Of a DNA stretch of 64,000 nt, positions 1-60,413 are shown in pieces. Under the pieces are notes generated by a model. The model was given only the letters and a program-made list of their open reading frames with translations. It was not told where the DNA came from and made no database searches. Within the stretch, counting starts at the first letter, position 1; each line of letters opens with the position of its first letter. The stretch is from positions 1 through 64,000 of the forward strand of contig JAFUOJ010000009.1 in assembly GCA_017481945.1 (NCBI GenBank), in the 5' to 3' direction. A program made the position numbers and the translations under genes. The DNA is from Parabacteroides sp. (GTDB lineage Bacteria; Bacteroidota; Bacteroidia; Bacteroidales; Tannerellaceae).

Positions 1-2570
1 CCTGCAGGAGCAGCGATTGTTGCGTTGTCTGATGTAAGAACTGTGTTAGCTACTACCTGACCTAAGATGTTGCTTACTACAACTTTCTTACCAGCAGCGC
101 CATTGATTGTTACATTACCTTCACCAGCGATTACTGTTACAGCAGAAGCAGAAATAGCTTCGTTAGCAGTAGGAACTACAGATGTCTTAGTTACAACCAC
201 CGGAAGAGCATCCATGTTAGTAGACATTACAACAACACCGTTGATCAAAGACAAACGAGCTTGTCTATTAATTGCTGGGTGGATAGTATATTGATTTTCT
301 ACATCTGTAATCTTGAATAAGAAGGTGTTCTTAGCAGCTTTTACTTTAGCCATTGTATCGTTGATCTTAGCCTTACCAGTAGCGAAGATTACGCTATCAT
401 TGTTTGCTTTATAAGTACCCTTTACAGTCAAGAAGTCACCAGATACAGAATCAGCTTCTACTGTTGCACCCTTCAAGATGTAATAAGTCGGATACAAACG
501 TTCACCAGCTTCGTCACATACGTGAGCAGAATCAATCCACAATGAGAAGTTTTCTTCGATTGCAGCTGCACTACCTAAGTTATCACCTAAGCTTAAGAAC
601 TTAGCTTCTTTATTTTCTTTCTTAGTTAATACTTCATTTTCAGACAAGTCTTCACTTTCAACTGTACCCTTTGAGTTATCAATGATCAAATAGTGACCAG
701 CTTCCAAACGAGCATATTCAGCGTCATCTAAGATTTCGTTAATAGTGAACAATGATACGTCATTGTTTGTTGTTCTAGTCCAAGTAGTTGTACCACCGTT
801 TTCATGTACACGGATAGCATCTAAACCAGCAGTAGCACAATTTGTATGAACAATAATCATCTTATATTCACCTTCGTTTTCTGCTTTGAAACCAAAGTAA
901 CGAACAACAGAATTTTCTTTTGCAGTTGTTAATGTCCAATTTCTAGTATTAGCTTCATTAGCTTTACCAACCCATAGTGTATCACCTTTGGCATTTACAG
1001 TATACAACTGATATACAGCCAATGTATCAGAAGCAAAAGTCTTAACACCCTTATCGTTCAAATTGAAGTTCTTACTACCAACATATTTAGCACGGAATTC
1101 TAACGGAGTTTCAGTTTCCAATACATTGATTGTTGAATCTTCGTTCATTACCATGTAAACATTTTCAGCGCCCAATTTGTTAACCAAACCTAAAGTAAAT
1201 GCAGAAGAAGCCAATTCTTCACCATCAAATACTTTATAACCATAGTTAGCATCGATAGCTTTTACAGAAACTGTATCTGTTCCAAAGATGAAGTATTCAT
1301 TATCACAAGTTGTGACTTTCTTAATAGGAGTTGCTTCTTCTTCGTTACCATAGAAACGGTTCCAAGCTTCATAAGAATAGATACCACCTTCGTAAGTAGA
1401 TTTAATCATCCACTGATTTTCAGGAACATATTCATTCTTCAATGTATTAACAGCATCACCAGCAGCTTCACAAACTGTTTCATAAGGGATACCCCAAATA
1501 CCTTTCTTAGAAGTCAAGATATACAAACCATCTGCTAACGGTTGACCAGCTTCGATTTGTGCAGGAGCAGGAGACCAATACGGTTGACCATTTGTTGTAT
1601 TATACAAGCTATCAACAGTGATATAATCTACCTTATCATTGATAAACTGTGCATTACCGATCCAAGCTACAGCCTGAGTTTTATTAACAGTATTTTCAGC
1701 TGCTAATTTTTTATCAACAACATTCCAAGACAATACTGAATCCATTACAGCTACAGCAATACTATCATTAACCGGGTTGAACAAAATACCGAAGTTCTTA
1801 AATGGAGACACAGCACCAAATGATACATTGAAACCAAATACTGCAGACTGACGAGGATCAGCTACGTTCACTGTTGAATTTGCTGTTACGTTAGAAGAAT
1901 CTACAGCCAAATACTTATTAGAAGTCTTTGATTGAATTGTGAAGATTATATCTGTACTTGAAGCGTCTGCACTTGTTGAAACAAATTCATAAGCAGCACT
2001 TTCTACATCAACACCTTCCATTGCAGCAAACAAAGGAACTGAATATTGTGCACATTGATTCAATTCAGCGACTGTCATCCAGTGAGTCATATCACCCGGT
2101 TCAGCCAAAACTACATCAATAGCGTTATTTTTATAAACGCCTGTATCAGGAGTTATAACTGTTGGGATTGCTGTTTTAACAGCAATTGTATAACCACCTT
2201 CTACTGTAAATAACTTTTTGTATTCAACATTTTCTGTTACATTTAGAGTATCCAAGTTGTGTCTTACTGCATCAACCTCACCCACTGCAAAGAGATCATT
2301 ACTCTTCAATTTTAAAGTGGTATTTGTTGCTTTGTTTGTAAACTTGTAAACTAAATTACCAGAAGTTTCACGAGAAACAACATCAACAGACCATAAAGAA
2401 GCCGCTGTTTTAGTAGCAGGATCATCTTTAGCTACTACAACTACAGAGTCACCTTGTTTAACCAATTCTCCATTTTGAGTCCGAATTTTCATCCAATTAC
2501 TCTGAGCATTAGCTGAGAAAGAAGTTAACGCAAGAGCTCCACACAAAAGAGTAGAAACAATTTTGTTCAT
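1..2570 (-). CDS. Large surface protein A with DUF6383-like C-terminal domain (3' end outside window)
   Basis: An open frame of 856 codons runs from an ATG at 2568-2570 to the window edge without a stop. It starts with a signal peptide (MNKIVSTLLCGALALTSFSA, cleavage likely after ANA before QSNW). The body is long, beta-rich and low in cysteine, full of short YxV/FxI strands. The last visible residues (AVTVIAGEGNVTINGAAGKK, then VVVSNILGQVVANTVLTSDN) match the C-terminus of the protein at 55846-58605, so only about 17 residues are missing. The C-terminal block resembles a DUF6383 domain and, more loosely, a type IX secretion sorting domain. It is probably exported to the cell surface, perhaps as an S-layer-type protein; that role is inference. 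A promoter homologous to the one in the invertible segment near 58.8 kb faces this gene. Confidence 0.85.
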   Translation of the reverse strand, partial: MNKIVSTLLCGALALTSFSANAQSNWMKIRTQNGELVKQGDSVVVVAKDDPATKTAASLWSVDVVSRETSGNLVYKFTNKATNTTLKLKSNDLFAVGEVDAVRHNLDTLNVTENVEYKKLFTVEGGYTIAVKTAIPTVITPDTGVYKNNAIDVVLAEPGDMTHWMTVAELNQCAQYSVPLFAAMEGVDVESAAYEFVSTSADASSTDIIFTIQSKTSNKYLAVDSSNVTANSTVNVADPRQSAVFGFNVSFGAVSPFKNFGILFNPVNDSIAVAVMDSVLSWNVVDKKLAAENTVNKTQAVAWIGNAQFINDKVDYITVDSLYNTTNGQPYWSPAPAQIEAGQPLADGLYILTSKKGIWGIPYETVCEAAGDAVNTLKNEYVPENQWMIKSTYEGGIYSYEAWNRFYGNEEEATPIKKVTTCDNEYFIFGTDTVSVKAIDANYGYKVFDGEELASSAFTLGLVNKLGAENVYMVMNEDSTINVLETETPLEFRAKYVGSKNFNLNDKGVKTFASDTLAVYQLYTVNAKGDTLWVGKANEANTRNWTLTTAKENSVVRYFGFKAENEGEYKMIIVHTNCATAGLDAIRVHENGGTTTWTRTTNNDVSLFTINEILDDAEYARLEAGHYLIIDNSKGTVESEDLSENEVLTKKENKEAKFLSLGDNLGSAAAIEENFSLWIDSAHVCDEAGERLYPTYYILKGATVEADSVSGDFLTVKGTYKANNDSVIFATGKAKINDTMAKVKAAKNTFLFKITDVENQYTIHPAINRQARLSLINGVVVMSTNMDALPVVVTKTSVVPTANEAISASAVTVIAGEGNVTINGAAGKKVVVSNILGQVVANTVLTSDNATIAAPA

Positions 2571-2684: not shown

Positions 2685-2714
2685 CAAAAATACATATACT
2701 TTTTAAACTTACAA
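2685..2714 (-). promoter_or_regulatory. Promoter of surface protein A, facing the gene (ON)
   Basis: On the minus strand a -33 TTG (2712-2714) is followed after 19 bases by the -7 box TATTTTTG (2685-2692), a good Bacteroidetes sigma-ABfr promoter. The box ends 115 bases before the ATG, giving a leader of about 110 bases. About 115 bases around it align with 58756-58872 on the plus strand. Confidence 0.75.
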
Positions 2715-2967: not shown

Positions 2968-3699
2968 TTAAAGCACCTGAATACCTTCTTCGCGAGCAGC
3001 TTCTTCGCCGGAAGGAGTGATTAGTTTGTAACCCTTACCGTGAATATTGATAATTTCGATACCCGGATCGTCTTTCAACAGTTTACGTAGTTTTGTAATG
3101 TAAACGTCCATACTACGTGCGTTGAAGTAGTTATCATCTACCCAAATGGTCTTCAAGGCGTAGTTACGTTCCAAGATTTCATTAGCATGTGCACAAAGCA
3201 GGCTCAACAATTCACATTCTTTGGTTGTCAATTTAGTCACCTTATCACCGATAGCCAATGTCTGTTTTTGTGTGTCAAACAAGAAATTACCCAACTTGTA
3301 GAAAGGAATGTCTTTCAGCTTCTTACCTTTCACACGGCGAAGAATAGCTTCAATACGAAGCAATAGCTCTTCCATGCTGAACGGTTTAGTCAAATAATCA
3401 TCCGCACCAATCTTGAATCCTTCCAAGATATCTTCCTTCATTGTCTTGGCAGTAAGGAAGATAATAGGTATCTCCGGATTGATAGAACGGATTTCTTGCG
3501 CCAATGTAAAACCATCTTTCTTTGGCATCATCACATCCAATACACAAAGGTCATATTTTCCCTTGGTGAACCCTTTATAACCTGCTTCTCCATCAGAGAA
3601 AAGATCGGTTATATACCCTTTTGCCTGTAAGTATTCTCTTAATAGCATACCCAGGTTTTCGTCGTCTTCACAAAAGAAGATTTTCAATTTTTCTTCCAT
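2968..3699 (-). CDS. rprY: Response regulator RprY (OmpR family)
   Basis: The 243-residue protein has an N-terminal receiver domain (about 5-120) with the acidic pair EDD at 11-13, phospho-acceptor D55 in LCVLDVMMP, T83 and K105. An OmpR/PhoB winged-helix DNA-binding domain follows (about 130-230). It is encoded 2 bases after the sensor kinase gene and is surely co-transcribed with it. Architecture, length and pairing fit RprY of Bacteroides fragilis and Porphyromonas; its regulon cannot be read from this window. Confidence 0.9.
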   Translation of the reverse strand: MEEKLKIFFCEDDENLGMLLREYLQAKGYITDLFSDGEAGYKGFTKGKYDLCVLDVMMPKKDGFTLAQEIRSINPEIPIIFLTAKTMKEDILEGFKIGADDYLTKPFSMEELLLRIEAILRRVKGKKLKDIPFYKLGNFLFDTQKQTLAIGDKVTKLTTKECELLSLLCAHANEILERNYALKTIWVDDNYFNARSMDVYITKLRKLLKDDPGIEIINIHGKGYKLITPSGEEAAREEGIQVL

Positions 3700-3701
3700 A
3701 A

Positions 3702-5255
3702 CTAACTTTTTATAAGAGGTAAAGTAATAATAAATTTTGTTCCTATACTATTGGAACCACTTTCAGCACGAATCGTACCTTTATGGTCCTCTACTATTTT
3801 ACGTACATAAGCAAGTCCAAGACCAAAACCTTTTACGTCATGTACATTGCCGGTCGGTACACGGAAGAAGCGATCGAATACTTTCTTCAGATATTCTTTC
3901 TTGATTCCGATACCGTTATCCTCAATGGATATTAACAGTTTGCCATTCTCATTCCATGTACGACACATTAGCGTCAACGGAGTATCCAAACGGCGGTACT
4001 TCACAGCATTATCCAACAGATTAAATAGAACGTTTGTCACGTGCATTTCGTCTACATAGATTGTTGAATCTTCTGCTTGTAAGTCGATATCGATTGTACC
4101 TTCATACTTCTCCACTTTCAAAGCAAAGGTATTTGCAACTCCGGCCAACAGGTCATTAGCGTCTACCTCTTTCAGTTTGAGAGCGGCTTTCTGACGTTCA
4201 AACAGAGACATCTGCAAAACCTTTTCAACCAAGAAGCTCAATCGCTTCGTCTCATCATTAATAACACCTGAGATATGTTTGAACACATCCGGACTCTTTG
4301 TTATATCTGAGTCTTTCAACATCTGGGCAGCAAGCGAGATGGTTGATACCGGCGTCTTCAACTCATGTGTCATATTATTGATAAAATCATTCTTCATTTC
4401 CGAAAGTTTCTTCTGACGGAATACGATATAGATGGTTACAATAAATGTTACCAACAATATCAATGAGAAGATGATAGACGGAACAATAAATGTTACAGAA
4501 CTTGAAATGTAGTCCCCTTTCGTTGGGAAATAAACCTTCAAAAAGTTTTGTTTTGAAGGAGGATCATTGGGAAATAGCACCTGTGTAACCACATCTGCGA
4601 CAGGAGGTATCTCTCCACTCTGATACACTACGTTTCCGTCTTTGTTAATAACAGAAAATATAAACGGCAAGTTCAATCCGTTGTTAATAAATTCTGATTT
4701 TAAGTAATTATTCAGCTTTTTAAAATCGATTCGCTCTTCTATCGGTTTCAAATTAGCCGTATGCAGAATACTTAGGATGACTTCATTCATCAATCCATTC
4801 TGATAACGATACCGACGCTTCAGTATCTGCTGCAAATCTTTAGAGGTACTGACAATACTGCCTGCCGATTTATTCCGGCTTAAAGAGGAAAGCGGTTCGA
4901 TCTTGCGTGTCCGAATGTCACTATGAATCTCTATCTGCTCAACAGTGCCATCAGCTTTTGCGAACTGCATTTTATATTTTCCTTCCGTAATAATCTCGCC
5001 TCCCAGGTTATCTTGTCCTCCTTGGTAGAGATAATTATCTGCCTCTTCACGACTTAAATCCTCTTCCAAGTAACGTCGTGTCTCCTCTAACTCCAAGTTT
5101 TTTGAGACTTGGTGCAGAGAACGCTTCACAGTTTCATTGAACTGTTCGCTGCTTTTCTTTAGAATAATGCTTACGTATTGCATTTGTAAAAAGAGTAATC
5201 CGGCAAATGCAAATGCCATCACCACCGCAAGCAACCATATTGTTGACTTCCTCAT
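3702..5255 (-). CDS. rprX: Sensor histidine kinase RprX
   Basis: The 517-residue membrane kinase has TM1 at about 7-24, a periplasmic sensor region of about 225 residues, and TM2 at about 253-279. A HisKA domain follows with the phospho-acceptor H297 in MTHELKTP, then an ATPase domain with the N box (LFNLLDNAVKY) and G boxes (DNGIGI, GFGLGLAYV). There is no HAMP domain between TM2 and HisKA. It forms an operon with rprY. A possible promoter box lies at 5385-5392 (minus strand TAGTTTTG), giving a leader of about 125 bases. Confidence 0.9.
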   Translation of the reverse strand: MRKSTIWLLAVVMAFAFAGLLFLQMQYVSIILKKSSEQFNETVKRSLHQVSKNLELEETRRYLEEDLSREEADNYLYQGGQDNLGGEIITEGKYKMQFAKADGTVEQIEIHSDIRTRKIEPLSSLSRNKSAGSIVSTSKDLQQILKRRYRYQNGLMNEVILSILHTANLKPIEERIDFKKLNNYLKSEFINNGLNLPFIFSVINKDGNVVYQSGEIPPVADVVTQVLFPNDPPSKQNFLKVYFPTKGDYISSSVTFIVPSIIFSLILLVTFIVTIYIVFRQKKLSEMKNDFINNMTHELKTPVSTISLAAQMLKDSDITKSPDVFKHISGVINDETKRLSFLVEKVLQMSLFERQKAALKLKEVDANDLLAGVANTFALKVEKYEGTIDIDLQAEDSTIYVDEMHVTNVLFNLLDNAVKYRRLDTPLTLMCRTWNENGKLLISIEDNGIGIKKEYLKKVFDRFFRVPTGNVHDVKGFGLGLAYVRKIVEDHKGTIRAESGSNSIGTKFIITLPLIKS

Positions 5256-5572
5256 ATCAATAAATATCTCTTTTCAACGCCACAAATAACGTTTCTTTTC
5301 ATTTAATATTCACACAAAAAATGTAAAAACAAGGCGGCTTAAATGTTAAAAATACATTACTAAATATCCAGTAAAATCTATATACAAAACTAACAATCAG
5401 ACATTTAAGACCTATTTTCAAGCCTTTTCTTCTTCCTCTAAAACCCTTATTGCATTCCCTTGTAACAGTCCTTTCGAGATATTTGTTGCTAAGAAGTATC
5501 AATTTCTTGTGCAGAAAGCATTACTATTTAATTATTAACTCTATCTTTGTCACTTGTAAGAGTTATGTGAAA
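5256..5572. other. Intergenic between divergent rprX and glsA
   Basis: This 317-base, AT-rich gap between divergent genes has no credible ORF. It contains a candidate minus-strand -7 box at 5385-5392 for rprX and a plus-strand TATCTTTG at 5542-5549 for the acyltransferase pair, the latter 23 bases before its ATG. No other repeat or RNA was seen. Confidence 0.6.
5542..5549 (+). promoter_or_regulatory. -7 box TATCTTTG for glsA-glsB
   Basis: The box matches TAnnTTTG exactly and lies 23 bases before the ATG at 5573. No TTTG sits at the ideal upstream distance, so the call rests on the -7 box alone. Confidence 0.5.
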
Positions 5573-6397
5573 ATGGGTTCAGCAAGTTTAACACAGATAG
5601 ACATCAAGCAAATACTACGACAAAAAGCGCCTTCCGCAGCTCGGAAGATTCCCGGTTTTGTTGTTGACTATCTGATTCGCACTGTCCATCAAGATGAATT
5701 AAATGAGATACTTCGTCGGTACCAAGATAAGGAGGGAGTCGCATTTATGCAAGAACTGATTGGCTACTTTGACTTAAACTTACAGCTGATACATCCGGAG
5801 AATATCCCGACAGAAGGACGTTATATCTTTGCTTCCAACCATCCATTAGGCGGATTAGACGGCATTTGTCTGTCAGCAGTGATAGGGAAATACTTCCAAG
5901 GGAATATTCGTTATTTAGTGAATGACCTGCTTTTGTATATTCCAAACCTAAAATCTATTTTTATTCCTATCAATAAACATGGGACGCAAGGGAAAAGAAA
6001 TGCACAATTAATTGAAGAGGCTTACGCTTCCGATAACCAAATCATTACTTTTCCTGCGGGGCTTTGTTCGCGTAAACAACAGGGAGAGATTCGGGATTTG
6101 GAATGGAAAAAATCATTTATACAGAAGGCAATCGAGCACCAACGAGATGTTATTCCGGTCTTTTTCGAAGGACGTAACTCAAACTTCTTCTACAATCTCG
6201 CCAACTTACGCAAAGCGTTAGGGATAAAAATGAATTATGAAATGATTTATTTGCCGGACGAGATGTTCAAGAGTAAACACAAGACATTCCAGATTTATTT
6301 CGGAAAACCGATCCCCTGGCAAACGTTTACACAGGAGCGTAAACCCATAGAATGGGCCGAATGGGTCAAAGGAATTGTTTATAATCTAAAGAAATAA
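5573..6397 (+). CDS. glsA: PlsC-like O-acyltransferase of glycine lipid synthesis (GlsA-like)
   Basis: I chose the ATG at 5573, just after the -7 box, giving 274 residues; an upstream in-frame ATG at 5450 would put the promoter inside the gene. The protein has the catalytic acyltransferase block NHPLGGLD (H90, D96; one residue longer between His and Asp than the usual HX4D) and a FPAG motif in place of FPEG, as in PlsC/OlsA relatives. The next gene, 10 bases downstream, is a GNAT-type acyltransferase. This pair fits glsA/glsB of Bacteroides thetaiotaomicron, where GlsB N-acylates glycine and GlsA adds the second, ester-linked chain. Acyl donor and product are inferred from the family. Confidence 0.75.
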   Translation: MGSASLTQIDIKQILRQKAPSAARKIPGFVVDYLIRTVHQDELNEILRRYQDKEGVAFMQELIGYFDLNLQLIHPENIPTEGRYIFASNHPLGGLDGICLSAVIGKYFQGNIRYLVNDLLLYIPNLKSIFIPINKHGTQGKRNAQLIEEAYASDNQIITFPAGLCSRKQQGEIRDLEWKKSFIQKAIEHQRDVIPVFFEGRNSNFFYNLANLRKALGIKMNYEMIYLPDEMFKSKHKTFQIYFGKPIPWQTFTQERKPIEWAEWVKGIVYNLKK

Positions 6398-6407
6398 CAG
6401 ATTTTAT

Positions 6408-7379
6408 ATGCAAGATATTATTAAACCAATTGACCGAACAATTCTCAAGGCAGAGTTAACCCAAGAGAAAAAGTTACGGCGAACCAACAAATCTAATAAT
6501 GAAATATACATCGTCACCGCCCATGACGCTCCTCATGTCATGCAGGAAATCGGGCGACTTCGGGAGATTGCGTTCCGCCATTATGGGGGAGGAACCGGAT
6601 TACCGATGGATATTGACGAGTATGACACCATGGAAAATGCCTACCGACAACTCATTGTTTGGAGTCCGGAAGAGGAACAAATCTTAGGAGGATACCGCTT
6701 CCTTCGTGGTGCAGATGTAAAGTTTGACGAAACAGGTAAGCCTATCTTGGCCACAGCTCACCTGTTTGATTTCTCAAAGAAGTTTATTGAAGAAATCTTA
6801 CCGAGCACTGTTGAGTTAGGTCGTTCGTTTGTTACCTTAGAATATCAATCGACTCGTACCGGGAACAATGCAAAAGGGTTGTTTGTCTTAGACAACCTTT
6901 GGGACGGATTAGGGGCCTTGTCTGTCATAGATCCCAGCCTACAGTATTTCTTTGGGAAGGTAACCATGTACAATACCTATAATACGGAAGCACGCGACTT
7001 GATTCTTTCTTTCTTGCGCATGCACTTCAAAGACCCGGAAAAGCTGGTCTCTCCCATCCATCCTTTACAAACAAACATCGACCAAGAGCGGATGGAAGCT
7101 CTTTTCCATTATGACAATTTCAAGGAGAATTACAAGATTCTGAATCAAGAGGTTCGGAAGTTCGGTATTAATGTTCCGCCATTAGTCAATGCTTACATGA
7201 GCCTTTCGCCTAAAATGCGTGTCTTTGGGACAGCCATTAATCATGAATTTGGCGAGGTAGAAGAGACCGGAATATTAATCGCAATTGATGAAATCTTAGA
7301 AGAGAAAAAGAAACGGCATATCGAAACCTACCTAAAAGAGGAGTGGGCTTCTGCCGAACTGATAAAAAACAAAGGGTAA
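6408..7379 (+). CDS. glsB: GNAT-fold N-acyltransferase of glycine lipid synthesis (GlsB-like)
   Basis: The 323-residue soluble protein belongs to the hemolysin/OlsB-like acyltransferase class with GNAT fold. Recognisable parts are RLREIAFRHYGGGTG (about 48-62), DEYDTMENAYRQLIVW and the ELGRSFVTLEYQ segment. In this class it transfers a 3-hydroxy fatty acid to an amino group; in Bacteroides the acceptor is glycine. It forms a two-gene operon with the PlsC-like gene upstream. Its stop codon lies inside the bidirectional terminator stem at 7366-7404. Confidence 0.75.
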   Translation: MQDIIKPIDRTILKAELTQEKKLRRTNKSNNEIYIVTAHDAPHVMQEIGRLREIAFRHYGGGTGLPMDIDEYDTMENAYRQLIVWSPEEEQILGGYRFLRGADVKFDETGKPILATAHLFDFSKKFIEEILPSTVELGRSFVTLEYQSTRTGNNAKGLFVLDNLWDGLGALSVIDPSLQYFFGKVTMYNTYNTEARDLILSFLRMHFKDPEKLVSPIHPLQTNIDQERMEALFHYDNFKENYKILNQEVRKFGINVPPLVNAYMSLSPKMRVFGTAINHEFGEVEETGILIAIDEILEEKKKRHIETYLKEEWASAELIKNKG

Positions 7380-16103: not shown

Positions 16104-17509
16104 TATCCCTTTTTCTCCAATATTTGTTTTACAGGATCCACCAACAATTCAATGTTACCTGCACCCACCATCAATACAACTTCTAACTGATCCACCTCAG
16201 CAGCAACCACCTCTAACAACTCCTCCTTTCGGATCAAACGCTTATTGGGAATCGTTACAGCGTCATAAATAATTTGCGAAGACACGCCCGGAATTGGTTC
16301 CTCACGTGCCGGATAAATATCCAACAGAATCAATTCATCCAACAGAGATAAACTGGCAGCAAAATCTGCAGCAAAGTCTCGTGTACGAGTATACAGGTGC
16401 GGCTGGAAAACTCCTGTTACTTTCCGTCCTGCGTACAATTCCTTTACTGAAAGGATACTTGCCTTCAACTCCTCCGGATGATGGGCATAATCATCAATCA
16501 AAACAATATTCTCTCTTTTCAAATGAAAGTCAAAACGTCTACGGGGACCGGCGAAAGAGGCCATACCTCTCTTTATCTCTTCTGCCGTTACTCCGTTCAA
16601 CCATGCCAAGGCTATTGCTGCCACGCCATTTTCAATATTGACTTTTACCGGAACCCCTAACTGAATCTCTGCAATCCGGACGTCAGGACCTACAAAATCA
16701 AAAAAGATTTCTCCGTTCCCAATACGTACATTTTCAGCATAAAAGTCCGGCTTTTGAACAGATTCACAGTCTTCTATAGCACCTCTATAGGTATATAACC
16801 GGACATCCGCCTGTAAGCGTGGAGTCACTTGAACCCCTTGCTTCATAATCAAACAACCGTCCGGACGAATCAAGGATGTAAAATGCTCAAAGCTTTCCCG
16901 ATAAGCCTCCGGCGTTCCATAAATATCCAAGTGATCAGGATCCGCAGCTGTTATCACAGCCATATAGGGTGTCAGCCAATGAAAAGAGCGGTCAAACTCA
17001 TCAGCCTCTATCACTGTCAAATCACTTCGGTCAGAAAGCATTAAGTTGCTATCGTAGTTCTTTAGGATACCGCCCAAGAAAGCGTTACAATCTACATGAG
17101 ATTGTTTCAACAGATGAGCCACCATAGAGGAGGTTGTTGTCTTCCCATGCGTCCCGGCTACACAAAGACCCCGATTGCAATTCGTAATCTCTCCCAACAC
17201 CCGCGCACGCTTCATCACCTCAAATCCGTTGGCCCGGAAATAGCTAAGTTCCGTATGGGATTCAGGGACAGCCGGTGTATAGACCACCAATGTTTTAGCA
17301 GGGTCTGTAAAATCATCCGGAATCAAATCCACATTATCCTCATAATGAATTGCAGCTCCCTCACTATTCAACTGTCCTGTCAAGCCGGAAGGAGTCTTGT
17401 CGTAGCCCGCAACTTTCTTTCCCTTTGATAGGAAATAACGAATCAGAGCACTCATCCCAATGCCTCCAGCCCCCACAAAATAGACAGCCGTTATGTTGTT
17501 TATATTCAT
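16103..17509 (-). CDS. murC: UDP-N-acetylmuramate--L-alanine ligase
   Basis: The 468-residue cytoplasmic ligase adds L-Ala to UDP-MurNAc. The N-terminal Rossmann domain has FVGAGGIGMSAL, the ATP loop GTHGKTTTSSM lies near 119-129, and the C-terminal domain includes DDYAHHPEE. It overlaps ftsQ by one base. Confidence 0.96.
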   Translation of the reverse strand: MNINNITAVYFVGAGGIGMSALIRYFLSKGKKVAGYDKTPSGLTGQLNSEGAAIHYEDNVDLIPDDFTDPAKTLVVYTPAVPESHTELSYFRANGFEVMKRARVLGEITNCNRGLCVAGTHGKTTTSSMVAHLLKQSHVDCNAFLGGILKNYDSNLMLSDRSDLTVIEADEFDRSFHWLTPYMAVITAADPDHLDIYGTPEAYRESFEHFTSLIRPDGCLIMKQGVQVTPRLQADVRLYTYRGAIEDCESVQKPDFYAENVRIGNGEIFFDFVGPDVRIAEIQLGVPVKVNIENGVAAIALAWLNGVTAEEIKRGMASFAGPRRRFDFHLKRENIVLIDDYAHHPEELKASILSVKELYAGRKVTGVFQPHLYTRTRDFAADFAASLSLLDELILLDIYPAREEPIPGVSSQIIYDAVTIPNKRLIRKEELLEVVAAEVDQLEVVLMVGAGNIELLVDPVKQILEKKG

Positions 17510-17547
17510 CTTTCTTACGTCTTACTGATCTTTGATACAAAGATAAA

Positions 17548-18654
17548 TCATTTTATAATCTTTACAATCTCATCAACAATACGTTCTGCACTCTGATGGT
17601 GTGCTAATTTAGCGATATTGCGACTTAATGTTTCCAAACGCGCACTATCATGTATTACTTGAAGTGCTGTCGGGACTAAATTCTGTTCAGCCTCTTTGTC
17701 TGCCACCATAATAGCCGCCCCTTTATCGACTAAAGCTTGTGCATTCTTCGTCTGATGGTCCTCTGCCACATTGGGGGAAGGAACCAGTATCACCGGTTTC
17801 TTTAACAAACAAAGTTCAGAGATAGAGCTGGCTCCAGCACGAGAGATAATCAAATCGGCAGCAGCATAAGCATAATCCATTCGTGTAATAAAATCCGAGC
17901 ACCACACAGGCATGCCTCGATAGGCCTTCAAATGCTTCACTGCCTCCTCCTGATAGTAACGCCCCGTCTGCCAAATCACCTGTACATCTACATCCGAAGC
18001 AAACAATTTATCCAAATCCCCCTGTATACTCCGGTTAATCGTCCGGGCGCCTAAGCTACCCCCTACTACCAAAAGGGTCTTTTTCTCCGGTGAAAGTCCA
18101 AAGAAACGTAATGCCTCCTCTCTTTTATCCAGTGCCTCTTCCAAATCCTGACGAACCGGATTCCCGGTAACTACTATGCGATCTGCCGGGAAGAACTTCT
18201 CCATTCCTTCATAAGCGACACAGATTTTACCGGCCTTCTTCGCCAACAATTTATTGGTCACACCAGCGTAGGAGTTCTGCTCCTGTATCAGTGTCGGAAT
18301 ACCTAACGAAGCCGCCATCCACAAAGTGGGACCACTGGCATAACCACCGACTCCCACCGCTATATCCGGTTTAAACTCACGTATCGTCTTCTTGGCAAGC
18401 TGTAAACTTTTAAACAAACGACCTACAACCCGAATGTTGTTCAGCAAATGCGCCCGATCAAATCCGCTTACCGGAAGCCCTACAATGCGATATCCAGCAG
18501 CCGGGACTTTCTCCATTTCCATCCGGTCTTCAGCTCCCACAAATAAGATTTCTGAATCAGGGAAACGCTTTCTCACTGTATTTGCGATTGAGATTGCCGG
18601 GAAAATATGTCCTCCGGTTCCACCGCCACTTATGATAATTCGATACGGTTTCAT
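17548..18654 (-). CDS. murG: UDP-GlcNAc:lipid I N-acetylglucosaminyltransferase MurG
   Basis: The 368-residue GT28-family enzyme makes lipid II at the inner face of the membrane. It has the N-terminal G loop ISGGGTGGHIFPA, the second G loop GVGGYASGP, and the C-terminal donor site SRAGASSISEL with EDHQTKNA. The start overlaps the ftsW stop (ATGA). Confidence 0.97.
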   Translation of the reverse strand: MKPYRIIISGGGTGGHIFPAISIANTVRKRFPDSEILFVGAEDRMEMEKVPAAGYRIVGLPVSGFDRAHLLNNIRVVGRLFKSLQLAKKTIREFKPDIAVGVGGYASGPTLWMAASLGIPTLIQEQNSYAGVTNKLLAKKAGKICVAYEGMEKFFPADRIVVTGNPVRQDLEEALDKREEALRFFGLSPEKKTLLVVGGSLGARTINRSIQGDLDKLFASDVDVQVIWQTGRYYQEEAVKHLKAYRGMPVWCSDFITRMDYAYAAADLIISRAGASSISELCLLKKPVILVPSPNVAEDHQTKNAQALVDKGAAIMVADKEAEQNLVPTALQVIHDSARLETLSRNIAKLAHHQSAERIVDEIVKIIK

Positions 18655-32293: not shown

Positions 32294-33196
32294 ATGCACT
32301 TAGAAAACGACAAAATAAAACGATATAAAACATACCTCCGTCTGGAAAAAGCACTTTCAGCAAATTCCATCGATGCCTATCTGACTGATTTGGATAAATT
32401 GACAAATTTCGTTGAGAACGAAGGAAAAAAATATGAGGATATCACCTACAGCGATCTGCAACAATTTATCGCTCAACTGCATGACCTCGGAATTCATCCC
32501 CGCTCTCAGGCCAGAATTATCTCCGGTATCAAGTCTTTTTATAAATTTCTCCTCTTGGACAACTACATAACCGTTGATCCGACTGAGTTATTGGAATCTC
32601 CCAAAATCGGGTTGAAACTACCTGAAGTCTTGACCGTCAAAGAGATCAATTCTATTTTAGACAGTATTGACCTTACCCAACCGGAAGGGCAACGGAACAG
32701 AGCCATCCTTGAGGTGCTATACAGTTGCGGACTACGGGTATCCGAGTTGGTTTCTCTCCGTTTTACAGACATCTATTTCGACGAAGGATTTATTAAGGTA
32801 GAGGGTAAAGGTAGCAAACAACGCTTGGTTCCTATCTCACAAATTGCCATAAAAGAGATCAAAAACTACCTCTACGACCGGAATCACATACCTGTCAAGA
32901 AAGGATTTGAGGACATCCTATTTTTAAGTAAAAGAGGAACTTCCCTTTCCCGTATCACCATCTTCCACATCATCAAACAACAGGCAGCTTTAGCCGGGAT
33001 AAAGAAAAACATAAGCCCTCATACATTCCGCCACTCGTTTGCTACTCATCTATTGGAAGGAGGTGCTCACTTGTTGGCTATCCAAGAGATGTTAGGACAC
33101 GAAAAGATTACTACAACAGAAATCTATACACATATTGACAGACAATTCTTACGGAAAGAGATATTAGAACATCACCCAAGAAACAAAACCAAATAG
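32294..33196 (+). CDS. xerD: Tyrosine recombinase XerD
   Basis: The 300-residue integrase-family protein has a SAM-like N-terminal core-binding domain (about 5-90) and a catalytic domain with the Arg in SCGLRVSELVSL, a lysine in GKGSKQRLVP, HTFRHSFATHLLEGG, GH in MLGHEKITTTEIYTH and the Tyr in YTHIDR. It most likely resolves chromosome dimers at dif with XerC. It is a housekeeping type, not obviously a DNA invertase. Confidence 0.92.
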   Translation: MHLENDKIKRYKTYLRLEKALSANSIDAYLTDLDKLTNFVENEGKKYEDITYSDLQQFIAQLHDLGIHPRSQARIISGIKSFYKFLLLDNYITVDPTELLESPKIGLKLPEVLTVKEINSILDSIDLTQPEGQRNRAILEVLYSCGLRVSELVSLRFTDIYFDEGFIKVEGKGSKQRLVPISQIAIKEIKNYLYDRNHIPVKKGFEDILFLSKRGTSLSRITIFHIIKQQAALAGIKKNISPHTFRHSFATHLLEGGAHLLAIQEMLGHEKITTTEIYTHIDRQFLRKEILEHHPRNKTK

Positions 33197-34519: not shown

Positions 34520-36235
34520 ATGAGAAAGTCTATTTTACATTTCATGCAATGTGCATTTCTTTGCACCAGTTATGCGCTGCACGCGCAAGTTTCTAATCCA
34601 TCTACATGGGAAAGTTTTATAAACAGTGAAGACAACCCGACTGTTTGTGATACATTCCGAATACAAACTTTCGGAAAATCAGAAAAAGACAATTGGGATT
34701 TCACGTTAACCGGAAGTTCTTCTGTTGTCCAAGACAAATATACTTTAAAACTACCCGTTGGTTCAGGGGCTATTTTCCAGCCCTACTCACTATCTGCCTA
34801 CACAGATGTAAAAATCAAAATACATGTAGCAGGATTACATTTATCTAGTAAAGATTCCCTTTTACTATATGTCTTTCGAAATGGAGAAGACGAGAAATTA
34901 ACGGCTCACACACCAACGGAAGAAGATTACCTAAACTACAAATATTTCACCATAGGAAATAATCCCAACTCTTTGTCTTTTGTAACAACTCAAACAACCA
35001 GTGAGGCAACTGGATATTATATGACAGACAGTGTTTTTGCCTATGGGAACATTCCTACCTATTCTTTATTTACAGGAACTGGGATATGGACTGATTCTAC
35101 CCGTTGGTCACATCTTCCTCCTTTACGAAATCGAAGTGCCTTAATCAACGGTACCGTTTCCATAACTGAAGATACACAATGTCATGACATTGCTATCTAT
35201 TCAGGCTCCCTTCAAATTGAAAGTAGCAGTCAACTTTCCATCAACAATTTAGATTTGTATGGAGACGAAGCAAACGTTCTTTCTAATGGAGAGATCAATA
35301 TTTCAAATCGTATCACTGTACATAAAACATTTGAATCTACCGATAAATGGTATTTCATCTCTTTTCCTTTTGATGTTTATTTCTCAGGAATAGACTCTCA
35401 ATTTGAACAAAAAGATGACACCCCCAACGACGGAGGTAACTATTTCTATGTACAAACCTACAACGGAGACAAACGGGCAACAGAAAATCAATCGTCTGAG
35501 AACTGGGAAGTAGTACCCATTCACACAGATACAAATACCCCACTGTTTGAAAAGAATCGAGGCTATTTAATTGCATTAGACAAAAATGCCACCCAAAAGA
35601 CCTTATCTTTTTCTTCCCAACCAGGTGAGGTAACAGAAGACTTTGCCCAAAAAGGAACTCTTTCAATCACCTTAGAAAATAATTCCACCTCAACGAATCA
35701 GGAAAATTACGGATGGTATCTATGTGGAAATCCATTACCAGCTCCATTGGCTTTATCTCGTATAAAAAGCAATGCAGCTTTAGATGGATACGTCTATGTG
35801 TACAACGGTAGTAGTTATCAACCCTATGCAATCGGAAGTAATCATGCATTACCTCCTTTTTCTGCATTCTTTGTAAAAGCCTCCTCTTCAACGACCCTAC
35901 AGATCATGGAAGAAAACACAACAAAAAATGCAGTTTCCGTCATTGATACTCACCATCCACTCAACATTACGACTGAAGAGCCCCATACCAAACAGAATGT
36001 GCATATAGAAACCCCAGAGAAAGAAATTCGCTATGCTATAAAAGACAAACAACTCTATCTGCAAAACATCCCAACACCTGGAAATATAAAACTTTTCAAT
36101 CTCTTGGGAGAATGCGTATGGCAAAAAGTGATTCAAGCAGGGACGCAAACAATTCCTGTAACTACGGAACCGGGAATTTACATCCTGCAAATACAAACAA
36201 AGAACTCTGAAGAACGACATAAACTAATCTTCTAA
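34520..36235 (+). CDS. Secreted protein with type IX secretion C-terminal sorting domain
   Basis: I chose the ATG at 34520, which follows the -7 box and opens a signal peptide (MRKSILHFMQCAFLCTSYAL, cleavage after HAQ). The mature protein of about 550 residues is beta-rich with no recognised enzyme domain. Its last 75 or so residues have the type A sorting pattern: LFNLLGECVWQ, then TEPGIYILQIQTKNSEERHK and a basic end. That domain directs passage through the type IX system and surface attachment. The body is of unknown function. The gene is alone, with its own promoter and a shared terminator. Confidence 0.85.
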   Translation: MRKSILHFMQCAFLCTSYALHAQVSNPSTWESFINSEDNPTVCDTFRIQTFGKSEKDNWDFTLTGSSSVVQDKYTLKLPVGSGAIFQPYSLSAYTDVKIKIHVAGLHLSSKDSLLLYVFRNGEDEKLTAHTPTEEDYLNYKYFTIGNNPNSLSFVTTQTTSEATGYYMTDSVFAYGNIPTYSLFTGTGIWTDSTRWSHLPPLRNRSALINGTVSITEDTQCHDIAIYSGSLQIESSSQLSINNLDLYGDEANVLSNGEINISNRITVHKTFESTDKWYFISFPFDVYFSGIDSQFEQKDDTPNDGGNYFYVQTYNGDKRATENQSSENWEVVPIHTDTNTPLFEKNRGYLIALDKNATQKTLSFSSQPGEVTEDFAQKGTLSITLENNSTSTNQENYGWYLCGNPLPAPLALSRIKSNAALDGYVYVYNGSSYQPYAIGSNHALPPFSAFFVKASSSTTLQIMEENTTKNAVSVIDTHHPLNITTEEPHTKQNVHIETPEKEIRYAIKDKQLYLQNIPTPGNIKLFNLLGECVWQKVIQAGTQTIPVTTEPGIYILQIQTKNSEERHKLIF

Positions 36236-55845: not shown

Positions 55846-58605
55846 TTACTTAACGATTGCTTTAACAGCTGCTTCGCCTTCAACGGCTACAACTACTACA
55901 CCTGCAGGAGCAGCGATTGTTACGTTGTCTGATGTAAGAACTGTGTTAGCGATTGTCTGGCCTAAGATATTAGCGATAACCACTTTCTTACCAGCTGCAC
56001 CAGCGATTGTTACGTTACCTTCACCAGCGATTACTGTTACTGCAGAAGCAGCGATAGTTTCGTTAGCTGTAGGAGTAGCAGCACGTTCAATTACGAACAA
56101 TTCTGCCTGATCCCCGTAAGTTGTCCAATACAATACATTGTTCAAATGAGCCAAATACATTGTACGAGCTTCATAAATAGGTTTATCATCAACGTCTACA
56201 CCAGTCTTTTCATTCAAGATTGAAACGATACGATAAGTTTCGTCATTTACGTCAGCAGCCACTTCAAATGCAACAGCCGCAGGATTCAATTTCATTGAAT
56301 TGATTGTATCCTTTGCAATCGCCAAAGAGTCAGTACCACAAACAGAAGCTGCAATATAAGCAGCACGAACTGCTTCTTCATCACCGGTAGCAGGTTCATA
56401 AGCATAAATCTGATTACCTTTTGAATCAAATATATTAGCTGTATTCATCAAATAATTTCTTGTTTCAGTACCTTCTTCGTTGAATGCACTTGTAGAAATA
56501 TAATACAATGGCATAGCAGCGTCAAACTTAACACAAGCAGTATCTAACCACATTGTCAATGTATCAGAAGTATAAACATCTTCAGACTTCAAGCTTTGAC
56601 CTTCAGCCTTCAATGCTGCATAACCATCTTTCTGAGAAGCTAAATATTTACCATCATCTTCTAATGTAGTGATCTTCACATGACCAACAGCTGGTTTGCC
56701 ATAAGTTGGAGCATCTTTCTTAGCAAATACGAATGTTGTATTTTCTAAGTCACACAAACCTGTCAAGAATGTAATACCAGAACCAGCCTTTGCAGCTAAT
56801 GCAAATTCAGTACCCGGGAATACGATCTTATATTCATTTTCTGAACCTAAATATTCAAATGCAACCCAAGCAGGAATTGTAGCTTTTTCTACATCAATCA
56901 TTGCAATTTCACCATTTGCAATACCAGTAGTACCGTCAACCCAAGCTAATACTTTTGTTCCTAAACGATTAGTTACAAAATATCTGTTAACCACAATACC
57001 ATTAGAGTTTGTAACAGTCATTGCCTCTTCTTCAACCGGAGTTACTTTAAATTTAGCTGCAGTTTCCAAATCAGAAGCTTCAACATATAAATCACCTGAT
57101 TTTTCACACAAATATAAATCTTCTGCCAAATCAGATTTCAACATGAAAGAAAGAGCACCGTTTACATAGTCATCTTTTGATATTTTCTTATAAGAATTAG
57201 CCTGAATTGTTACAACTTTTGGACCTTTTACCAACTGCAATGTATCTGTACCAAATGCATAAGTGCTTGTTGTTTCGTCAATCAAAGTGATAAAACCAGT
57301 ACCTTTAATTTTATTGTTGTTCAACATATTTTTCAATACATTTGAATCCAAATACCACAAATCAGAAGGAACATCTGTTACAGAAGAAACTGAACTTACA
57401 GTTTCATTACAGTTATCATATACAAAATATTTACCAATGTTTTTACCTGTAGTCTTTGCATTCTTAATATAATATGTATAATTCTTATCTAAAGTAGCAG
57501 GAGCTGTAGCTTCACCAAATGTAGCTTTAGCAGGAGTAAACGCAGAAACTTGGTTTGGGTCAGAAAATGCAGCCATCACTGTTGTTCCACCGGCAAAATC
57601 ACCATAAGACAATGGTTTTACATCTTCTTGTACTGGTACATAACCTGGTTTTTCACGTTTACTTGCTACCGCAGGAGCATCAGTAGCTAATGCAGGAACA
57701 GCTTGCGGAGTGATAGTAATTGTATAACCATCACCAACATTCACTTCTGCTTTAAATGCGTAGAAACGAGCAGAGCGACCATTTTCTAAAACAGTCGAAG
57801 GAGTACCATTATTAGCATAAGTTTCTTTTGTATCTGTAGGTTTTACATCTGTTGTTAACTTGTAGTAGCTAAAATCTTTATTAGTAGACTGAGCCCAAGT
57901 TGCAGTATCCACTACCAAATATTTGCCATCAGCAAATTTAAAGTTCAAATAACCGTCAAGTTCTATTCCACTTGATAATGTTGCTGTTTCAGCTACAACT
58001 GCAACACCATCTAATGGATTACCTTCTACTTCTTTAGTAAAATTCAAAACAAATGATGTATTATACAAACCGTTCATTTGTTCGTATGTCAAAACCTTTG
58101 TTTTATTAACCGTTTCAATTATGACTGAAGTTCCTGTTGTTACTTGCTGTAAAGTTACTGCACCTGCTGCATTCACAACAAGAGCGTAAGTCTTACCACC
58201 AATTGTAATATCAATATTACCGTCATTAGCAACATTCCACAAAGCCTGACCATTCTCCGCTAAAACCGCACCTTTTGTTGCATTCTTTTTAGACAGATCC
58301 AAACTCAGTACAGTTCCAGTTCCATAGTTTGTAATTTTATAAACTTCTTCGTAACCTGAAACAGCAGTACTTTTTTCAAATTTCCAAAGTGTTTTTTTGT
58401 AAGCAGCAGAAAGTACATCTGCATCCTGTGAAGCAACTAATACCAAACTATCAGCACCCGCAGCAGTGGTTTTTGTAGTCAAGTATTTTCCGTCCATTTT
58501 TACAGTTGTCAATTTTCCAACAACACTTGAGTCTAATTTTGCAGATGCTGAGACTGAACCCAACATCGCTACACCCATCAAAAGAGTAGAAAACTTTTTG
58601 TTCAT
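55846..58605 (-). CDS. Large surface protein B with DUF6383-like C-terminal domain, phase-variable
   Basis: 919 residues from the ATG at 58605 (MNKKFSTLLMGVAMLG, signal peptide ending ASA), chosen because it aligns with the start of protein A; an in-frame ATG 2 codons upstream is less likely. The body is Ala/Thr/Lys-rich and beta-stranded with repeated ricin-like or beta-trefoil-like KYLxxK segments (YLTTKTTAAGA, KYLVVDTATWA, KYLASQKDGYA). The last 60 or so residues (AVTVIAGEGNVTIAGAAGKK, VVIANILGQTIANTVLTSDN, ending AVKAIVK) match protein A at both protein and DNA level. The end resembles a type IX sorting domain. The gene lacks a facing promoter in this assembly. Confidence 0.88.
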   Translation of the reverse strand: MNKKFSTLLMGVAMLGSVSASAKLDSSVVGKLTTVKMDGKYLTTKTTAAGADSLVLVASQDADVLSAAYKKTLWKFEKSTAVSGYEEVYKITNYGTGTVLSLDLSKKNATKGAVLAENGQALWNVANDGNIDITIGGKTYALVVNAAGAVTLQQVTTGTSVIIETVNKTKVLTYEQMNGLYNTSFVLNFTKEVEGNPLDGVAVVAETATLSSGIELDGYLNFKFADGKYLVVDTATWAQSTNKDFSYYKLTTDVKPTDTKETYANNGTPSTVLENGRSARFYAFKAEVNVGDGYTITITPQAVPALATDAPAVASKREKPGYVPVQEDVKPLSYGDFAGGTTVMAAFSDPNQVSAFTPAKATFGEATAPATLDKNYTYYIKNAKTTGKNIGKYFVYDNCNETVSSVSSVTDVPSDLWYLDSNVLKNMLNNNKIKGTGFITLIDETTSTYAFGTDTLQLVKGPKVVTIQANSYKKISKDDYVNGALSFMLKSDLAEDLYLCEKSGDLYVEASDLETAAKFKVTPVEEEAMTVTNSNGIVVNRYFVTNRLGTKVLAWVDGTTGIANGEIAMIDVEKATIPAWVAFEYLGSENEYKIVFPGTEFALAAKAGSGITFLTGLCDLENTTFVFAKKDAPTYGKPAVGHVKITTLEDDGKYLASQKDGYAALKAEGQSLKSEDVYTSDTLTMWLDTACVKFDAAMPLYYISTSAFNEEGTETRNYLMNTANIFDSKGNQIYAYEPATGDEEAVRAAYIAASVCGTDSLAIAKDTINSMKLNPAAVAFEVAADVNDETYRIVSILNEKTGVDVDDKPIYEARTMYLAHLNNVLYWTTYGDQAELFVIERAATPTANETIAASAVTVIAGEGNVTIAGAAGKKVVIANILGQTIANTVLTSDNVTIAAPAGVVVVAVEGEAAVKAIVK

Positions 58606-58675
58606 AAACATTACTTTTTTAGTTAATAATTTATTGTAATCACTTATATTTCAACGATTAACTTAAATTTGGTAT

Positions 58676-58904
58676 AATGACCAGCGAAAACGTTCGTTTT
58701 TGTTTGGCATATTTTTGTAGCTTTCGGAGGGAAAATGGGACTTCGTGTAAGAAAAGTGGTTTTTCGTATAGATTTAGCTATCTAATTGATAAGAAAGGAT
58801 ATAGAAAAAGTTTTTTTATCAAAGAAAGAATTGCAGATTAAAAAAGAATACCTATTTTTGTGCTGTGAAAATGGCAAAAAAAACGAACGTTTTCGTTGGT
58901 CATT
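58676..58904. repeat. Invertible promoter segment (inverted repeats with promoter inside)
   Basis: The 26-base arms AATGACCAGCGAAAACGTTC... (58676-58701) and its reverse complement (58879-58904) differ at one position; similarity continues inward for about 10 bases. Each arm contains the dyad AACGAA-AACG-TTCGTT (first base G in the left arm), the kind of symmetry bound by site-specific recombinases. The 177 bases between carry a full promoter. This layout is diagnostic of phase-variable promoters in Bacteroidales. Confidence 0.88.
58831..58860 (+). promoter_or_regulatory. Promoter inside the invertible segment, facing away from protein B (OFF)
   Basis: TTG (58831-58833), 19 bases, then TATTTTTG (58853-58860), the same as upstream of protein A. 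It reads rightward, away from the minus-strand gene. After inversion the box would fall at 58720-58727 on the minus strand, 115 bases from the ATG at 58605. Confidence 0.85.
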
Positions 58905-59089
58905 TTGTTTTCTACCTCTATTTAAATCACAATCAAGCATTTAATCACTCCGAATCCATCAAATATAGGCAAAAAAGCCTCTTATATATAATAACGTACG
59001 CATGTACATCTATTTATAATAAATAAAAGATTCCCAATAACATAAGTAGCTTTTCTCTTTCTTACTCCAATTACAAAAAAAGCATTAAA

Positions 59090-59192: not shown

Positions 59193-60185
59193 TTATAACA
59201 TTTGAATCTCTTCTATGGACAGACCGGTACAGGTAACTATAGCCTCGACTGACAGTCCCTGTTCCTTCAGTTGTAAGGCGATCTCTATCTTTGCTTTCCT
59301 TTCTCCTTCTGCCAGACCTTCCGCACGACCTCGTTCCAATCCTTCTGCGCGTCCCTGTTCTAAGCCTTGTTCCAGCCCCTCTTTGAGACCTTTTACATGA
59401 CCTTGCTCTAAACCCTCTTCACGACCCTCTTTATAGCCGTCGTCATGTCCTTCGATCCAGCCGGTCTGAATCACACTCTTCTGGTAGCGGACGGCATCCA
59501 TATGATGATAGTAAGCACGACGTTCAGCGTCAGTGAGGTTCATGATCCGCAGACATTCACGCGCTTCCGGAAGGCCTTGTGCCGTGGCATCTGCCGAAAT
59601 CGTTCCGGTCTTCAAAAAAGAAATCCATTCGTCTAACGGAGTGGTTGCCAACTGATCAAAGTCATCCACACGTAAGATGTAGTATTCCGGGAAGATGTCT
59701 CCTGCCTCTTTCCCTCTGAACTGTGCCTGCTGACGGGCTGTCAGCTGAAGGATGTCATTGTGATGAATGCCCCGGAAGACTGTTTTGCCATGATAAACAT
59801 AGTCCATACCGATTCCGATACCGAAATATATAATGTTGATTGAATAGACTTTGCGAATCACACCATACTGCTCCCCTTCGTGGATATATTCGGTTATGGT
59901 CTTTGAGGTGCCATACAGAATGCGGTGGAAGTAGTCTAACTCGCGGCTGTTCTGAATCTCTATAATAAAAAGCTCGTCTTTGTCGTTTTGCGCGAGCAAA
60001 TCTACCCGGTTGAACTTATCGTTCTCATCCTCCTTATTGCTTTCACTTTCCAACAGCTTGGTGATGTGAATATTCTCTTTCAACAAAGTAGATAGGAAAC
60101 CCTCTAAAACAACAAAATTCGCCTTGTTTCTTAGCAATCGCTTCATGGCCCAATCGAAGCGTACCAACTGTTCTTCCTTTTTCAT
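59193..60185 (-). CDS. Rpn-family PD-(D/E)XK nuclease/putative transposase
   Basis: I chose the ATG at 60185 (MKKEEQLVRFDWAMKRLLRN), preceded by AAAAGAATAACT and a CAAAGATA-type promoter at 60218-60225; 330 residues. The N-terminal nuclease core has FKxV-like NFVVLEGFLSTLL, RVDLLAQ and IIEIQ (the D and E of the PD-(D/E)XK fold, K replaced by Q). The C-terminus has tandem EGxxxG units (EGREEGLEQG, EGLEQGRAEG, near 250-300), then a helix resembling a Hin-type end. The proteins of this family promote recombination in some species; whether this one is active is unknown. Confidence 0.85.
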   Translation of the reverse strand: MKKEEQLVRFDWAMKRLLRNKANFVVLEGFLSTLLKENIHITKLLESESNKEDENDKFNRVDLLAQNDKDELFIIEIQNSRELDYFHRILYGTSKTITEYIHEGEQYGVIRKVYSINIIYFGIGIGMDYVYHGKTVFRGIHHNDILQLTARQQAQFRGKEAGDIFPEYYILRVDDFDQLATTPLDEWISFLKTGTISADATAQGLPEARECLRIMNLTDAERRAYYHHMDAVRYQKSVIQTGWIEGHDDGYKEGREEGLEQGHVKGLKEGLEQGLEQGRAEGLERGRAEGLAEGERKAKIEIALQLKEQGLSVEAIVTCTGLSIEEIQML

Positions 60186-60217
60186 AGTTATTCTTTTTTG
60201 TGTTTGTAACTGTACAA

Positions 60218-60225
60218 CAAAGATA
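60218..60225 (-). promoter_or_regulatory. -7 box TATCTTTG of the Rpn-family gene
   Basis: An exact TAnnTTTG on the minus strand, 33 bases before the ATG at 60185. Confidence 0.5.
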
Positions 60226-60330
60226 TAGAAAATTCTATTGGAACAAAAGAATGGAGAAGAAAAAACAAAAGTTTCAACAAACATACAAACCATTTGGATT
60301 TTTATCACATTTTTCATTCCTTTGCAGCCG

Positions 60331-60413
60331 AAATTCAAAAGGGGTGCTTATGGTAACATAGGCTGAGAATATACCCACATTACCTGTACGGATAATGCCG
60401 GCGTAGGGAATTT
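60331..60413 (+). ncRNA. TPP riboswitch (THI element)
   Basis: Conserved THI-box segments are present in order: GGGGTGC (60341-60347), GGCTGAGAATATACCC (60361-60375), ACCTG (60382-60386), GGATAATGCCGGCGTAGGGA (60390-60409). P1 is formed by AAATTC (60331-60336) and GAATTT (60408-60413). It precedes genes for thiamine uptake and activation, so thiamine diphosphate should turn them off. Confidence 0.95.

Follow-up and report, generated by a model that had tools for sequence, protein, structure and literature searches.

The closest described counterparts of the locus reported here are the S-layer glycoproteins of Parabacteroides distasonis, of which nine have been identified (PMC11647740, citing Fletcher et al. 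2007) and for which phase variation has been described (PMC8400631, citing Fletcher et al. 2007). Tannerella S-layer proteins and the putative S-layer glycoproteins of B. distasonis are also reported to be alike at their C-termini (PMC4030854). The capsule loci of P. distasonis are described with adjoining tyrosine recombinases (PMC8400631), and their repeat is reported as GCTACTYRGNRAGTAGC (PMC12118408). In Bacteroides fragilis, a single serine recombinase, Mpi, inverts 13 regions, seven of which are capsule promoters (PMC4747536), and a paper on B. intestinalis, where the invertible promoters measure 183-186 bp, gives ARACGTTCGTN as the Mpi repeat of B. fragilis (PMC8375218).

The locus analysed here has its genus in common with the P. 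distasonis S-layer glycoproteins, and like theirs its expression would be phase-variable; its product belongs to a paralogous family of Parabacteroides. Against the nine glycoproteins of that species, the (incomplete) genome studied here has four paralogs with a related upstream region, one of them armless. With the Mpi promoters of B. fragilis and B. intestinalis, the locus shares the placement of a promoter between short inverted repeats and the core ARACGTTCGTN. The genes switched here would be those of surface proteins, not capsule operons. The repeats quoted for the two Bacteroides species have a single centre, TT, whereas the centres of the sampled Parabacteroides switches vary and are matched within each switch. 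We consider it very probable that the promoter before this S-layer-like gene is genuinely invertible and of the Mpi type, and that the assembly shows it in the OFF state.

A promoter between inverted repeats

The stretch analysed, hereafter the window, comprises 64,000 nucleotides of Parabacteroides sp. The first-pass annotation had described in it two 26-base arms, reverse complements with one mismatch, and between them a complete promoter directed away from a surface-protein gene. The arms were borne out (Table 1). They extend to 29 nt if two mismatches are allowed, form the only 26-nt inverted repeat in the window with at most one mismatch and arms within ~450 nt, and had no equivalent in any of 200 dinucleotide-preserving shuffles. 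Both contain the B. fragilis Mpi repeat, with the promoter between them. Taken alone, the short core is no rarer than chance: where 2.8 matches with at most one mismatch were expected in the window, 2 were found, and the genome has 17 copies of the degenerate core ARACGNNCGTTT on each strand, a reversed control giving 15-16. The weight therefore rests on the paired, promoter-containing arrangement. When 393 Bacteroidales genomes were searched for the exact pattern of core, promoter box and core, 3 matches came from 2 genomes, both Parabacteroides and one of them that of the window (G000), and a backward-pattern control gave 0. As the draw took in three genomes of the genus and exact cores were demanded, this search bears on specificity rather than frequency; in G059 it gave 2 matches against 8 pairs by the looser scan described below.

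Table 1. Positions of the switch, its gene and related features. Unprefixed positions refer to the window; C2 and C19 are other contigs of the same genome.
Feature	Position	Strand	Remarks
S-layer-like surface protein, 921 aa, C-terminal DUF6383	55846..58611	-	PF19910 E 1.9e-31, above cut-off
Gene-proximal inverted-repeat arm, Mpi-type crossover site	58676..58701		Core AAACG-TT-CGTTT at 58688-58699
Spacer with promoter, predicted to invert	58702..58878		Basis: homologous segment reversed in C2
Bacteroidetes-type promoter TTG-N19-TATTTTTG	58831..58860	+	Directed away from gene
Gene-distal inverted-repeat arm	58879..58904		Core AAACG-AA-CGTTT at 58881-58892; reverse complement has TT, in agreement with proximal arm
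Rpn-family recombination-promoting nuclease/putative transposase gene	59193..60338	-	Adjoins switch
Paralogous DUF6383 surface-protein gene (locus A)	3..2570	-	Cut by contig end at its 3' end
Promoter facing locus A paralog	2685..2714	-	Homologous to switch promoter; no inverted arms found
Homologous switch	C19:2894-3103		OFF
Homologous switch	C2:2905-3114		ON
Armless gene-facing loci			G000 A, G002 L077, G007 L136, G013 L106, G014 L096, G016 L173, G021 L072, G022 L158, G059 L127

The promoter was likewise found complete and pointing away from the gene, which lies on the opposite strand, and in the 349 bases before its ATG a search for TTG-N18-21-TAnnTTTG returned no promoter directed towards the gene. 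From the direction of the promoter we call the assembled state OFF, in which the gene is presumably silent. The earlier reading was of a gene OFF in the sequenced clone; the promoter direction and the OFF call stand, but the wording should be OFF in the assembled sequence, because the assembly consists of 45 contigs and is 83% complete. It presents this exact segment in one orientation. A -7-like box on the + strand at 58710 had no -33 partner in the promoter search, and a lone -7-like box facing the gene is found at 58960, just past the 349 bases and beyond the distal arm. Flipping the segment in silico between the central dinucleotides places the TTG of the promoter 138 nt upstream of the ATG and facing the gene, with the end of the -7 box at 108 nt. 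Five homologous ON switches with a gene beside them have the promoter at 144-161 nt.

Another way to view the locus is that a fixed promoter outside the segment transcribes the gene, while the flipping promoter has some other target or none. The isolated box at 58960 would fit this, and the position of the compared loci in itself says little, since they were mostly fetched as upstream regions of DUF6383 genes or as resembling this stretch. However, the box is located on the far side of the distal arm, with no full promoter directed at the gene within 349 bases of the ATG, the + strand has no open reading frame of at least 80 codons starting between the promoter and 60448, and the flipped promoter would come to lie at nearly the distance seen in the ON switches. 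We regard a fixed promoter as most improbable, and take the promoter within the segment to be the one that would drive the gene.

The gene and its protein family

The product had been given as a 919-residue protein; the count of 919 codons holds from the second ATG, while the first ATG gives 921. The comparison with P. distasonis S-layer glycoproteins was apt. The protein falls into a Parabacteroides paralogous family with a conserved C-terminus (PF19910). Judged by its first residues, the N-terminus resembles that of a secreted protein, and by family resemblance the product is S-layer-like and probably surface-exposed. PF19910 matches were present in all 38 genomes of the genus searched, with 1 to 38 in each, and in none of 14 control genomes. 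No ortholog of the 921-aa protein was found among the relatives compared (the best showed 34-41% identity over partial length), a protein search of genome contigs with it as query gave no confirmed relative, and a sequence search of the PDB gave one chance-level match (E 0.98).

We also considered whether DUF6383 is a type A sorting tail of the T9SS, an identity that the comparisons did not establish: the match to TIGR04183 had E 0.11 and 12.5 bits against a cut-off of 23, and when 20 DUF6383 tails were compared by hhalign with 5 of the genome's 9 T9SS tail matches, the probability was 1.5%. The genome does encode the T9SS protein SprA, so DUF6383 could still be a divergent sorting tail. The DUF6383-type genes at L118, L119, L138, L142 and L172 have a different upstream layout: they lack a core pair, and the promoter facing them sits at ~404-415 nt.

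Paralogs in the same genome

The upstream region of the switch matches three others in the genome, namely an OFF switch, an ON switch and the armless locus A (Table 1). The flanks of locus A (2968-6598) match those of a locus in another genome (G023 L083) that carries a matched switch; locus A therefore seems to have once had a switch, to have lost it and to have remained ON. Seven further places with AAACG-NN-CGTTT in the genome (C4, C7, C13, C27, C40:188717, C42 and C45) showed no matched pair with a promoter between. The resulting count of three switches comes from a scan that misses degenerate cores.

Two observations concern the assembly itself. Contigs end inside the conserved DUF6383 C-terminal stretch at G000:C40:1, C2:1, C19:1 and 41274, and C45:1, so repeats of the family probably broke the assembly. 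Equal-scoring XerD matches (window 32627-33142 and C30:7092-7607) and equal-scoring T9SS-tail matches (window 36059-36229 and C30:4005-4175) suggest that C30 duplicates part of the window in this assembly, for which 4.97% contamination is listed.

Arms agree at a variable centre

We scanned 100 stretches: the window, two other loci of its genome (L009 and L010) and a further 97 taken from 14 relatives. Sought were two cores 155-200 apart with a promoter between, the two central letters of each core being left out of the score. Most of the stretches had been picked for their DUF6383 genes or for DNA similarity to the locus, and DUF6383 genes were partly sampled. The scan returned 71 core pairs in 14 genomes. 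In 69 of these (13 genomes) the central dinucleotide of one arm is the reverse complement of that of the other; the two discordant pairs (G016 L168 and G029 L170) look mispaired. When arms were shuffled within genomes (20,000 trials), matching pairs numbered 35.5 on average and never more than 51, against the 69 observed. Two loci of G059 have identical arms, and dropping one of them left 68 of 70 concordant, with a shuffle mean of 34.5 and the same maximum of 51.

The agreement between arms, corrected for chance as kappa, was 0.94 and 0.95 at the central columns -1 and 0, as against -0.2 to ~0.3 at most flanking columns. Exceptions on the inner side, at +2 (0.85), +5 (1.00, from one variant only), +6 (0.45) and +9 (0.58), make the centre the clearest rather than the sole agreeing part. 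Such agreement at the centre is what continued, selected inversion would be expected to leave behind, whereas shared ancestry of the arms, by itself, should not favour the centre. Pooling each dinucleotide with its reverse complement, the 68 concordant pairs fall into four classes: TA (22), AA/TT (21), AT (21) and AC/GT (4). The genome of the window has AA/TT twice and AT once.

In other serine recombinases, differing central 2-bp overlaps are reported to give trace recombinants at most (PMC11607074), and at the hix site a single core change is reported to prevent ligation in the inverted orientation (PMC4817059). Among the matches listed in a search of open-licence literature, by titles and abstract openings, there was no report from Bacteroidales that switches served by one invertase differ in their central dinucleotides. 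Two papers in that literature mention DUF6383 by name.

An Mpi-family recombinase

The genome encodes one Mpi-family protein, a 207-aa recombinase on another contig (G000:C12) that has a full-length open reading frame and matches the NCBIfam model NF009949 ('master DNA invertase Mpi family') with 314.1 bits against a cut-off of 272. Mpi-like matches (E up to 1e-30) occur in 33 of 38 genomes of the genus. Four of the genomes without one (G006, G018, G034 and G061) contain just one DUF6383 match apiece, and the fifth, G004, an assembly of 490 contigs, has 27, which counts against a strict link between Mpi and DUF6383. At one locus (L098, G014:C1:1114000-1119000) a matched Mpi-type TT pair, with cores near 2065 and 2230 and a promoter, has no adjoining DUF6383 gene; an Mpi-family invertase may thus control further loci besides those of DUF6383.

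The genome has 11 tyrosine and 2 serine recombinase matches, the latter including Mpi, and inversion could accordingly be the work of another enzyme, either a tyrosine recombinase, of the kind that adjoins the P. distasonis capsule loci (PMC8400631), or the second serine recombinase (at G000:C9). However, the core is that of the Mpi repeat and not the repeat reported for those capsule loci (PMC12118408), strong agreement of the arms at the central 2 bp is expected of a serine recombinase acting on a dyad-symmetric site, and the window's single serine or tyrosine recombinase match, XerD, lies ~25 kb from the switch. We therefore judge another recombinase to be improbable, and favour the Mpi-family protein as the invertase.

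Orientation across relatives

One orthologous site is found in both orientations, OFF in G014 (L092) and ON in G013 (L102). The two loci are collinear on the gene side (L092 1-5667 with L102 11272-16927) and on the far side (5814-7095 with 17074-18399), and L092 5638-5842 matches L102 17103-16898 in reverse, such that the inter-core segment alone is reversed. It follows that the orientation of the homologous segment differs between G014 and G013. Thus, the proposal that the gene is switched by inversion is supported by homologous switches of the same genome in both orientations and by this reversed segment, as well as by the match of the core to the Mpi repeat, the Mpi-family invertase gene and the matched central dinucleotides. 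By analogy with these homologs, the individual segment studied here would invert too.

By script, 63 of the 69 concordant pairs were OFF and 6 ON. Leaving aside one ON and one OFF switch without a real gene beside them (L082 and L098), 5 of 67 were ON, and OFF is the usual assembled state. Without L082, each genome has 0 or 1 ON switches; a claim of exactly one per genome was dropped because the sampling was partial, the 100 stretches not taking in all DUF6383 genes.

The preponderance of OFF, together with the single orientation seen for the segment itself and the occurrence of armless relatives such as locus A, is what one would also expect if the switch were a fossil, inverted in the past and now locked OFF or inverting too rarely to matter. 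Against this, both 12-base cores are intact with matching centres, the Mpi-family open reading frame is present at full length, and the homologous switch on C2 of the same genome is ON. A fossil is, in our estimation, highly improbable, and we retain the reading of a working switch.

Classes mostly stay with sites and cassettes may move

Switches were linked across genomes by the DNA beyond the distal arm. Both members had the same class in 19 of the 21 pairs so linked, whereas shuffling the classes within genomes gave an expectation of 8.9 (0 of 5,000 shuffles reached 19). The two exceptions concern a single site, AA/TT in G002 (L079) and AT in its G013 and G014 counterparts, at which both arms change together. 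Protein identity at linked sites ranges from 97.5% (L091-L101) down to ~35% over partial length (L071-L091).

Three further loci (G013 L106, G014 L096 and G021 L072) have common flanks and a gene-facing promoter at 136-137 nt, but no arms. At this armless site the G013 and G021 proteins are 86% identical, while the G014 protein is 41.5-43.2% identical to them. An 81% relative of the G013 protein is instead found in G014 at another site, under an OFF switch (L093). Over alignment columns 1-800, L093 shows 61-95% identity per 100 columns to the G013 fixed-site gene against 32-44% to its syntenic counterpart (L103); over the remaining columns the two are about equal (67-93% and 70-97%). Such a mosaic is what an exchange of cassette segments from one site to another could produce.

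Among the sampled loci, a gene-facing promoter at 130-144 nt without a core pair occurs once each in nine genomes (Table 1), and G023 L088 has a similar armless layout with the promoter at 156 nt. At these ten loci, a general search for repeats turned up nothing arm-like apart from a weak repeat of 15 nt at L136 and shorter or weaker ones at L077, L088 and L096. The notion of one fixed-ON site per genome was softened, as the flank comparison covered three sites and the repeat at L136 may be a degenerate arm.

Discussion

The explanation that we find best, and hold with high confidence, is a site-specific DNA inversion switch operated by an Mpi-family serine recombinase. The recombinase, encoded elsewhere on C12, would bind both dyad-symmetric arms, cut each AAACG-NN-CGTTT core at its central TT/AA dinucleotide and religate the 195-base segment in the opposite orientation. 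As assembled, the segment's only consensus promoter points away from the gene; once inverted, it would promote expression of the 921-aa DUF6383 S-layer-like protein. Given three switches and a fourth, armless paralog with a facing promoter, a cell should display the protein of the armless locus plus those of whichever switches are ON. The Salmonella invertase Hin serves a single switch and is encoded within the segment that it inverts, whereas several dispersed switches would here share a distant invertase. What would make the two alike is a serine invertase needing matched core nucleotides for inverted ligation (PMC4817059).

Invertible S-layer promoters in Parabacteroides are already a known kind, which this locus joins. 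The new and testable part is the classes of central dinucleotide, which should limit which switches recombine with each other. We tentatively suggest, as a possibility short of an even chance, that Parabacteroides has one invertase and many switches, in which the central dinucleotides act as recombination addresses, the class stays with the site across species, and cassettes are exchanged between sites, including an armless, always-ON one.

The question raised is how numerous switches can share one invertase without the chromosome being scrambled. Centres of 2 bp that match within a switch, yet differ between switches and are inherited with the site, offer a simple answer, and one that predicts which switches recombine. 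If the address reading is true, the arms of one switch match and switches of different class cannot exchange ends, so that rearrangement between switches would be limited without several invertases. Arms that agree at a variable centre would also provide a computational sign, obtainable without reads, of a serine-recombinase switch that is working or was so recently. The locus belongs to a known class of surface switches, believed to protect gut bacteria from phages and from immune recognition.
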